Of a stretch of DNA of 64,000 nucleotides, positions 591 through 45,373 are shown piece by piece (the first letter of the stretch is position 1; every line of letters starts with the position of its first letter). A program made the position numbers and the translations under genes. This stretch comes from Parvularcula dongshanensis (GTDB lineage: Bacteria; Pseudomonadota; Alphaproteobacteria; Caulobacterales; Parvularculaceae): positions 124,001-188,000 of the forward strand of contig NZ_JACHOB010000005.1 in the NCBI RefSeq assembly GCF_014199615.1. The letters run 5' to 3'. The notes below the pieces were generated by a model. It was not told where the DNA came from and ran no database searches. It worked only from the letters and a program-made list of their open reading frames with translations.

Positions 591-680
591 CAGGCGAAGG
601 CCGGGTGCGGCGGAATGCCCCCTCTCCCGCTTGTCACGCGTATCGCCTTGGAACGCTTTGGAAAGGGCGTAAGTGAAGCA

Positions 681-858
681 GTGGCGGCGTCCGTGGCGCT
701 CGTCCTGACGGACTGAGCGCGAGGTCTCTACTCTCTCCCCCGAAGGGGACCTTGGCGGACGCCGCCACCACCGGAACCGAAGTTCCTGAGTGGGAATGTG
801 GGCAGGTACACTCCCCCCGAAGCGCGGCGACATGAGGTTGGGCAGGTGCCGCCACGCG
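681..858 (-). ncRNA. candidate structured small RNA (novel)
   Basis: The gap between mmcB and the HAD gene holds no convincing reading frame but is packed with inverted repeats. Read on the minus strand they are, in order: a hairpin at 857-822 (11 pairs with G-U wobbles), a hairpin at 815-792, a C(UUCG)G hairpin at 786-773, and a 13-pair stem joining 768-756 to 693-681. That stem encloses a second UUCG hairpin (749-736) and a hairpin at 720-696. UUCG tetraloops in this sense favour the minus strand as the transcript. The first two loops both present ACCTGCCC. I see no match to the conserved cores of RNase P RNA, SRP RNA or tmRNA. There is no U-tract, so the 3' end is uncertain. Inference only; no family is recognised. 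Confidence 0.5.
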
Positions 859-868
859 CCACAATCCT

Positions 869-885
869 AGCACAAACCGTGCCAA
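869..885 (-). promoter_or_regulatory. candidate sigma-54 (-24/-12) promoter
   Basis: On the minus strand this reads TTGGCACGGTTTGTGCT. It matches the sigma-54 consensus TTGGCACG-N4-TTGCW at all but one defined position, with the essential GG and GC doublets at the correct spacing. Start of transcription would fall near 858, directly at the first hairpin of the RNA candidate. No sigma-54 activator gene is visible nearby. Confidence 0.5.
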
Positions 886-895
886 GTGAGGACGA

Positions 896-1618
896 TTATG
901 TGGCCGCTTCGCGGCGCGATAACAGGTTCGTGAACTCGTCGGTCAGCTGTTCGTGCGTGGCGAAGACACGTTCGGCCCCGGCATCGATTAACGCTTCGGC
1001 GTGGTCCGGCAAGCAGTGCCCGCCTCCCGTGAAGCCCCAGACCGTCGCTTCGGCCGCAACCCCCGCCGCCACGCCATGCGCGCTGTCTTCGATGACGAGG
1101 CAGCGTTCGGCCGCGACGCCGAGCCTCGTCGCGGCGAAGAGGAATATGTCCGGGGCGGGCTTTCCGTGGCTGACATGGTCCGCCGAGTAGACATGCTGAC
1201 CGAAGACGGGCCGCAGGCCGTATCGGTCGATCTTGTCGTCCAGAAACGCCTGTCCGGATGACGAGGCGACCGCGATCCGGACGCCGGGAAGCCCTTGCAC
1301 CATGCGCAGCAGGTCTTCGGTCCCCGTGACCAACGTCATCGTGTGCCGCTTCGCCCGCCGGGTTTCGATCAGCCCGTCGATGAGCTCCTCGAACTCGCGT
1401 TCGTCGGCATCGCGTCCGAGGATCTGCCCATAGGCCTCGCGCAGCCCCGCCGCGAAGCGGTCGTAGCGCATGCCGCTGAAGCGACGGATGAAGTCCTCGG
1501 TCGTCCAGGCGAAGCCGTGGCCGGACAGGTAGGCGGCCGCGTCCTCGAGTCCGACGACCTCGGAATCGACGAGAACGCCGTCGCAGTCGAAAAGGATCGC
1601 ATCGAAGGGAAAGCTCAT
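896..1618 (-). CDS. HAD-superfamily phosphatase/phosphomutase (subfamily IA)
   Basis: A 240-residue haloacid dehalogenase-like hydrolase of the beta-phosphoglucomutase/phosphoglycolate phosphatase type. Motif I is LFDCDGVLVDSE near the N-terminus, with the nucleophile and acid aspartates. A helical cap follows. Motif II is VASSSGQ, motif III is the lysine in HGKPAPDIF, and motif IV is CLVIEDSAHGV. The family removes or transfers phosphate on small sugar phosphates in the cytoplasm; the substrate cannot be read from sequence. It lies downstream of hppA on the same strand, and the two are separated by a strong hairpin that ends two bases before this ATG. No separate ribosome binding site lies between the hairpin and the start. 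Confidence 0.85.
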   Translation of the reverse strand: MSFPFDAILFDCDGVLVDSEVVGLEDAAAYLSGHGFAWTTEDFIRRFSGMRYDRFAAGLREAYGQILGRDADEREFEELIDGLIETRRAKRHTMTLVTGTEDLLRMVQGLPGVRIAVASSSGQAFLDDKIDRYGLRPVFGQHVYSADHVSHGKPAPDIFLFAATRLGVAAERCLVIEDSAHGVAAGVAAEATVWGFTGGGHCLPDHAEALIDAGAERVFATHEQLTDEFTNLLSRREAAT

Positions 1619-43801: not shown

Positions 43802-45373
43802 TCAATCACTACGCAGCAGGAGATCGTCGATTGAAAGCTCGTCCTCCTCTGTCTCCGTAGCTTCCTCCGGCTCGCCGTCCTGGAAGAAGCCGTCATCGCT
43901 CTCCTCCTCGTCCGAGCCTGGTTGCGGCGCCTGTTCGAGGAACGTGCCCCGCCCGGAGCCGTCCTCTTCGCCGCGGCGAGCCCTACCAACGTTCGGCTCG
44001 GCATCCGCGCGCTCCGGTGCGAACGGGTTCCGGAAGCCCCGTCGCTCGTTCGGGCTGCCAAGCTCCGGCTCGAGCGGCTCCTCGCTGGCCTGCAGGTCCT
44101 CGGCTCTTTCGGCCTCCGCGATGTTCCAGCCTGTCTCGCTCGGCCACACGGTCAGGTTCTCCTGCCGCATGGCGAGGATGAACTGCTGCTCGTCGCCGAT
44201 CGCAGTGACGTCGATGACCGCGTTCTCGTTGTTGAAGACGCCGGTCTCCATCTGCCTCACGAGCGAAGTCCCTTCGAGGGCCGCGCGGATCTCCGCCCAC
44301 TCTCCGAGGCCGCTGAACCAGGCCGTCAGCGGGAACTCCCGAGTGGCGGCATGGTCAACGAGCGTCCGGCTCTTCCAGTCGCTCGCATAGGCGGCCACCG
44401 TCCCTTCGACAGCCCGCTGCGCGAGGGCGGGGAAGTCGTCCCCCTTCCCGCGGAAGAACGCCTCGGCGAGGAAAGTGCCCGGTTCGTTGGCGCTGACGCG
44501 AACGGGCCCCGACGTGCCGAAGCCGCCCTGATCGTCGTAGAGTTCGGCAGCGGTGCCCGCATCGATGCGGCGGCGGTTCGATCCGCGGCCATCGAGGTAG
44601 GCGTCGATCAGCGTGACGGTCAGGCGAAACTGTCCGTCCTCCTCCGCGAGGTGACCGAGCGCGATCAACACTTGGGGCACCCGATAGCGTTCGGCGAGCG
44701 CAGCGAGGGGCTCCAGATTCAACCTTTGAGCCTCCAACGGCGTGATCGTGTCGACGTCGCGCGCATCGCCGCGCGGCAGGACGAGCGGGGTCAACTCGTT
44801 CTCGAGCGGGCGCGCAAGCCATGCGCGCGCCCACGGGTTCTTCGCCTCCCAAAGGTACAGACCCTTCTCGGTCTCGAGCAGCGGCAGGACGAGCGCCTTG
44901 CGGCTCTGCGCTTCGGAGTACGGCAGGTGGGCGCTCGACAGGAGGTTGCGCACGGCGTCCGGTTTGAACCGGTAAGTGATCGACGCACGGTAGGTCGTGC
45001 GGGAGGACTTCTCGTCGAAGACGGCGAAGCTCTGCTCGAGGGCGGGAAGCTGTGAGGCGTCGAGGGCGACGGGCTGCTTCACGTCCATGCTGAAGCTGCC
45101 GTCGTCCTGCATGACGGGCTCGGCGTCGCCCGCTGGCGGGGCCTCCGAGGCGGACAGCTGAGGCAGGTAGACCCAGTCCTCCTCGGCTGTCAGGCGGCGA
45201 AGCAGCAGGTCCATTGCGATCCGGCGCCCCTGCTCCTGTGCCTGCGCCTGCGCGGCGGCGCCGTCCTTCGCCTCGGCGTAAACGGGAACACGGGGGACGG
45301 TGAAGATCTCGGTCTGGGCAGCGGCGGGAGAGACACCGAGGACCAGAAACAAGGTGAGGATCGCGATGCGCAT
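43802..45373 (-). CDS. DUF2066 domain exported protein
   Basis: A 523-residue exported protein with a signal peptide in residues 1-19 (ILTLFLVLGVSPAAAQ). DUF2066 features follow: VPVYAEAKDGAAAQAQAQEQGRRIAM, FKPDAVRNLLSSAHLPYSE, then LVLPLLETEKGLYLWEAKNPW. The last 120 residues are strongly acidic and low-complexity (EEPLEPELGSPNER, SDEEESDDGFFQDGEPEE), likely disordered. The role is unknown, but the gene sits next to hdaA in many alphaproteobacteria, as here. Confidence 0.85.
   Translation of the reverse strand: MRIAILTLFLVLGVSPAAAQTEIFTVPRVPVYAEAKDGAAAQAQAQEQGRRIAMDLLLRRLTAEEDWVYLPQLSASEAPPAGDAEPVMQDDGSFSMDVKQPVALDASQLPALEQSFAVFDEKSSRTTYRASITYRFKPDAVRNLLSSAHLPYSEAQSRKALVLPLLETEKGLYLWEAKNPWARAWLARPLENELTPLVLPRGDARDVDTITPLEAQRLNLEPLAALAERYRVPQVLIALGHLAEEDGQFRLTVTLIDAYLDGRGSNRRRIDAGTAAELYDDQGGFGTSGPVRVSANEPGTFLAEAFFRGKGDDFPALAQRAVEGTVAAYASDWKSRTLVDHAATREFPLTAWFSGLGEWAEIRAALEGTSLVRQMETGVFNNENAVIDVTAIGDEQQFILAMRQENLTVWPSETGWNIAEAERAEDLQASEEPLEPELGSPNERRGFRNPFAPERADAEPNVGRARRGEEDGSGRGTFLEQAPQPGSDEEESDDGFFQDGEPEEATETEEDELSIDDLLLRSD

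Follow-up and report, generated by a model that had tools for sequence, protein, structure and literature searches.

Does the gap between two convergent genes of Parvularcula dongshanensis encode a regulatory RNA, and if so, how might it be expressed and act? Within the 64,000 nucleotides of DNA analysed here (the window), this gap occupies positions 591-895, between mmcB (PF06319; 105..590, plus strand) and the gene for a HAD-family hydrolase (896..1618, minus strand), behind which stands a proton pyrophosphatase gene (HppA). A sequence-only reading had placed here a multi-hairpin RNA facing a sigma-54-like promoter. Of the two genes, mmcB is the convergent neighbour of this RNA, and the HAD gene lies directly upstream on its strand. 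The answer favoured here, with moderate confidence, is that the gap carries a genus-restricted and probably trans-acting small RNA (sRNA) of ~180-205 nt on the minus strand, which would pair with mRNAs through two of its loops.

Fold, covariation and strand

All parts of the candidate RNA (678-885) are read on the minus strand. Its first hairpin (C; 822..857) has arms at 857-848 and 831-822 and a loop at 847-832 containing ACCTGCCCAAC, and its second (B; 792..815) has arms at 815-808 and 799-792 and the loop ACCTGCCC at 807-800; both are supported by folding and by covariation. Folding further gives a small hairpin, GGAAC(UUCG)GUUCC (773..786), and a closing arm (A; 678..771), whose stem (771-756 with 693-678) encloses a CCCC(UUCG)GGGG hairpin (~749-736) and an inner hairpin (~720-696). 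The loop sequence which the sequence-only reading had found repeated is ACCTGCCC, present at 847-840 in the first hairpin and at 807-800 in the second; the window has five further copies, against a total of 1.6 expected. The two C(UUCG)G-capped hairpins it had assigned to one strand are likewise present (caps at 782-777 and 745-740), and the 13-base stem said to tie the 3' half together appears as 13 pairs in the fold of 681-885 and as 16, G-U pairs included, in the fold of 678-858. The fold energy of 678-858 on the minus strand is -102.7 kcal/mol (z -5.1), and none of 200 shuffles was as low; for 681-885, z is -3.96 on minus versus -2.9 on plus. At the position of the small UUCG hairpin, the folds of G002, G004 and G008 have hairpins of other sequence, as judged by eye.

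This form of the RNA, termed class I, is found in six of the ten Parvularcula genomes (G000, G002, G004, G006, G007 and G008), with G006 included by eye alone on the basis of UGCCC in two loops. A covariance model of the two hairpins, R1, was built from a seed of four of these (G000, G002, G007 and G008), the alignment being padded by hand to the structure. All six aligned species keep UGCCC unchanged in both loops, and the loop and linker lengths in the seed vary by non-multiples of three. On the minus strand, 98.4% of the 64 cells of the four-species seed alignment are paired, with 8 of the 16 pairs changed on both sides. For the same alignment reversed to the plus strand, 87.5% of cells are paired, a gap that arises because G-U pairs exist on the minus strand only, and by these pair counts a plus-strand RNA is disfavoured for the two hairpins. 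In the five-species model alignment, which was fitted to the modelled structure, 98.8% of 80 cells are paired and 15 cells are changed on both sides (values as high occurred in none of 500 shuffles), with 8 pairs changed on both sides (1 of 500 shuffles). Changes on both sides affect six of the eight modelled pairs in hairpin C and two of eight in hairpin B. A covariance check in relatives had been called for by the sequence-only reading, and its outcome is that the stems covary, the loop word is kept, and the minus strand is favoured for the two hairpins.

Fold energies of the whole locus, computed on extracts limited to 300 bases, are lower on the minus strand in all six class I species. Taken by themselves, the two hairpins fold with lower energy as minus than as plus in G000, G002 and G004; in G006, G007 and G008 plus has a slight advantage. 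Their z-score is lower on minus in five of the six class I species, the exception being G007. Arm A folds with far lower energy on minus in G004 (-44.5 vs -36.2) and G008 (-57.5 vs -33.3); the margin for minus is slight in G006, G007 and G015, and G000, G002 and G033 show a slight margin for plus. By z-score, plus is the better strand for the arm in G002, G004, G015 and G033, and in the window species the arm is almost symmetric between strands. The evidence supports a minus-strand reading of the two hairpins; the arm A data do not settle the strand. Downstream of mmcB in G015 and G033 (L043 and L044) there is an arm-A-like stem without the two hairpins, with CUCUCUCCCCCGAA as its plus-strand loop and, by eye, a promoter-like pair on plus (TTGCCA-18-TATTAT/TATGAT). 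This stem may belong to a separate RNA on the plus strand.

Two forms at one site in Parvularcula

At E < 1e-4, R1 matches 5 of 62 family genomes, all of them Parvularcula and all at the syntenic site, including G004, which lies outside the seed (E 4.9e-5). No match beyond those five Parvularcula was found among the 62 family genomes at E < 0.1. G006 is not reported by R1 in the 62 family or 299 order genomes, and scores 6.1 bits with filters off. Under the stricter filters of the larger searches, which may miss weak relatives, the 299 order genomes gave the five Parvularcula and three matches inside open reading frames at E <= 0.05, and the 385 class genomes gave only the window's own genome at E <= 0.01. 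R1 matches in G030, G036, G157, G161 and G177 were rejected, as they lie inside open reading frames, and those in G021, G029 and G054 were discounted (E > 0.6). A pattern scan returned 31 genome-contig and 10 viral matches, two of which are Parvularcula with a full R1 match (Parvularcula oceani JLT2013 and an uncultured Parvularcula MAG). Three of the other 39 were checked (L119, with 32.2 bits, L128 and L133) and rejected for lying inside open reading frames, and the rest were taken as chance. Plasmids yielded four short Streptomyces matches of ~28 bases each, the phage search yielded no match, and a generic single-hairpin model was dropped for its poor alignment.

The four remaining Parvularcula genomes (G001, G003, G005 and G009) carry a second form, class II, at the same place and on the same strand. 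The mmcB and HAD genes are adjacent and convergent in all ten genomes; the locus extracts for G006 and G003 overrun, and the end of mmcB was not located in them. The HAD hydrolase match of G003 (L076) has one in-frame TGA. In the class II RNA, one hairpin has the loop CCCCCACCCA and, beyond a middle stretch, a terminal one has the loop CCCCCA; by eye a U-rich tail comes next, clearest in G009. Its likeness to class I is limited to place, strand and C-rich loops, with no clear common sequence. A second model, R2, with 5 of 17 seed pairs changed on both sides, matches all four class II genomes and gave one further weak match (G287, E 0.02) in the 299 order genomes. In the family and order searches, at their thresholds, neither R1 nor R2 reports both forms in one genome; a smaller search with R1 did pick up the class II RNA of G003 (22.4 bits, E 0.008). 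In the HAD and MmcB protein trees a single branch separates class I from class II (support 90/86 and 100/99); three outside rows are left uncounted, and many forks are weak. Neither form was found with confidence outside Parvularcula, and the RNA is genus-restricted so far.

The class II locus is matched by the model of CcsR1 (RF02791) in all four genomes, with E-values of 4.8e-6 to 0.003, all below the cut-off, and the G009 RNA aligns over the full CcsR1 length (31.9 bits vs a cut-off of 65.3; E 2.6e-6). These weak scores mean little, because weak matches also occur elsewhere, in one control genome and in 13 of 41 family genomes (two of them of almost equal strength). G009 also gives weak matches to unrelated families, tfoR among them, and GC-rich hairpins explain part of the CcsR1 likeness. 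The gathering score of 65.3 was reached in none of the 41 family genomes, the window's own included; G008, outside the 41, gave 12.4 bits (E 2.1) for its two class I hairpins. The window RNA shares a C-rich-loop hairpin with CcsR1 but gives no CcsR1 match. CcsR1 is reported to be often associated with a short DUF1127 gene (PMC10253847), whereas the immediate neighbours of the window RNA are mmcB and the HAD gene; no DUF1127 gene is present among the three nearest genes scanned (mmcB, HAD hydrolase and HppA).

Promoter candidates and rival readings

The consensus of sigma-54 promoters is YTGGCACGRNNNTTGCW. The -24/-12 element TTGGCACGGTTTGTGCT (869..885, minus strand) departs from it by one mismatch, as had been claimed, with its GG and GC doublets 10 bases apart, and this near-consensus match is peculiar to the window species. 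Its predicted start, 858, lies 12 bases on from the GC, at the base of the first hairpin. Such sites are rare (0.09 expected in the window; one is present in 9 of 100 window shuffles), none of 500 single-base shuffles was as good, and rpoN is present in all 21 genomes searched, the window's own included. The placement is suggestive but constitutes no test, because the element was noticed by its position. Transcription started at 858 by RpoN and an enhancer-binding protein, of which NtrC and FlbD are examples, would be compatible with mRNA pairing; we regard it as a minority possibility, since in the 80 bases before the hairpin the element is absent from all nine other Parvularcula species (best matches with 4-6 mismatches, reached by 7-94% of shuffles), and the genome has 8 sites with <=1 mismatch versus 19 for a reversed control pattern, hence no enrichment. 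With the element in one of ten species, sigma-54 was rejected as a conserved feature of the RNA, and it may be a species-specific promoter in the window's species. Of the earlier proposal of one sigma-54-driven regulatory RNA, the structured minus-strand RNA was borne out by covariation and synteny, and the sigma-54 control was not. Three one-mismatch sigma-54-like sites elsewhere in this genome (L163, L164 and L169) lie within ~100 bases upstream of possible start codons, and two of them precede genes that by eye appear acyltransferase-like and glycosyltransferase-like.

Other signals at the RNA ends are sparse. TAGGAT (864..869, minus strand), a possible -10 hexamer with no recognisable -35, ends 6 bases before the first hairpin and scores 7 of 12, as do 21% of shuffles or better. 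Searches of 500-1000 found neither a sigma-70-type promoter nor a minus-strand intrinsic terminator, and the class I species have no promoter in common. This last point is in keeping with the hairpins being processed from the 3' untranslated region of the HAD hydrolase transcript, as is the position of the first hairpin, which follows the stop codon of the HAD gene by 29-83 bases, on its strand, in all ten species (both RNA forms counted). On the other side, by eye, a CTTTAC word resembling a -35 precedes a -10-like word by 17-18 bases in three of the four class II RNAs, although with scores of 7 or 8 of 12 that are reached by 13-74% of shuffles. We consider such an origin somewhat doubtful; a stable piece of this kind may still act as an sRNA. 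The confidences placed in the best explanation and in the sigma-54 and 3' untranslated readings overlap, because promoter and origin are separate from mode of action.

Two other readings concern whether the loops pair with mRNAs at all. The repeated loops may instead bind a protein, as in titrating RNAs of the CsrB/RsmY kind, and one word, no plain anti-Shine-Dalgarno sequence, that recurs in two loops while the stems vary would suit such a role. There is no candidate protein, however, and the C-rich-loop RNAs GsrN and NfeR1 are reported or predicted to pair with mRNAs (NfeR1: PMC10746234), so that titration appears unlikely. Still less probable is a mere end structure of DNA or mRNA, functionless in itself, which the convergent intergenic site and the near symmetry of arm A in the window species would allow; it accords poorly with a loop word that is invariant while the stems covary, with G-U pairs on one strand.

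Known RNA designs and a proposed mode of action

No Rfam family reached its gathering score anywhere in the window or in 12 related loci, in agreement with the earlier remark that no known RNA core was matched. BjrC80 (RF02354) gives a weak full-length alignment on the same strand and stretch (674-864, 15.7 bits), but with an E-value of 1.3 against a gathering score of 80 and no listing for G002, G008 or G009. BjrC80, Glycine, HOTTIP_3, tfoR and other permissive Rfam matches were attributed to chance or to GC-rich hairpins.

The RNAs ar14 and NfeR1 (SmelA075, SmelA099) are linked to the name 'cuckoo RNA'. As described, ar14 RNAs have several hairpins (three in one account, PMC10746234) with one identical C-rich loop word, CCUCCUCCC, on stems that differ freely (PMC10746234, PMC3927594). 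The window RNA similarly shows the same loop word in two hairpins whose stems diverge; it differs in the word itself, (A)CCUGCCCA (loops ACCUGCCC) rather than the anti-Shine-Dalgarno CCUCCUCCC, in having two such hairpins rather than three or four, in its long 3' arm, and in matching no such Rfam family. The likeness to alphaproteobacterial C-rich-loop sRNAs noted in the sequence-only reading therefore extends to the design and not to the known anti-Shine-Dalgarno word. For GsrN of Caulobacter and the ar8/Sis RNAs, a C-rich loop or strand is described as pairing with mRNA leaders or another RNA (PMC5869019, PMC12559287); theirs, in contrast, is one described pairing stretch, of other sequence and at another locus. 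Overall, the window has a real structured RNA element, probably an sRNA of the known repeated-loop design (ar14/CcsR-like) with a new loop word. A literature search for Parvularcula and sRNA found no paper, and one for mmcB and small RNA returned only items judged unrelated from the listing, with nothing on the window RNA.

In the preferred reading, we infer that the element is transcribed as one RNA, which would start near 858 and end near 678 or slightly beyond on the minus strand. The two hairpins would present the single-stranded word (A)CCUGCCCA, which, by analogy with the repeated-loop RNAs of the ar14 group, would base-pair with GGGCAGG(U) in G-rich stretches of mRNAs, probably close to their ribosome binding sites. 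Such pairing would lower the translation or stability of the mRNA, and the long 3' arm would protect the RNA end. An exploratory target search of 53 mechanically called reading frames in the window gave one frame outside the RNA locus with a perfect loop complement at its start (GGGCAGGTCATG), a DUF2066 gene (43802-45373, minus strand). The sequence GGGCAGGTC, complementary to the RNA loops, directly precedes its ATG, and its pairing energy is the best outside the locus (-21.2 kcal/mol; next frame -20.2). With ortholog starts unsettled, the G002 ortholog keeps a shortened site, GGGCAG, and the other class I orthologs by eye have no site; in the class II genome G009, GGGCAGG lies ~45 bases before the ortholog start. 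DUF2066 is a lead only as a candidate target, the site being not conserved enough.

If expressed, this would be an RNA covered by no Rfam family, with a 'constant loop, free stem' design and a word that is not anti-Shine-Dalgarno. We tentatively suggest, as a possibility below even chances, that one sRNA gene swapped its targeting word within the genus, between CUGCCC/UGCCC (six species, one by eye) and CCCCC (four). If so, the repeated-loop scaffold and the locus would have been kept through a change of seed and hence of regulon. With both forms at a single site, the genus would lend itself to a natural comparison of how the seed of an sRNA and its targets change in step.
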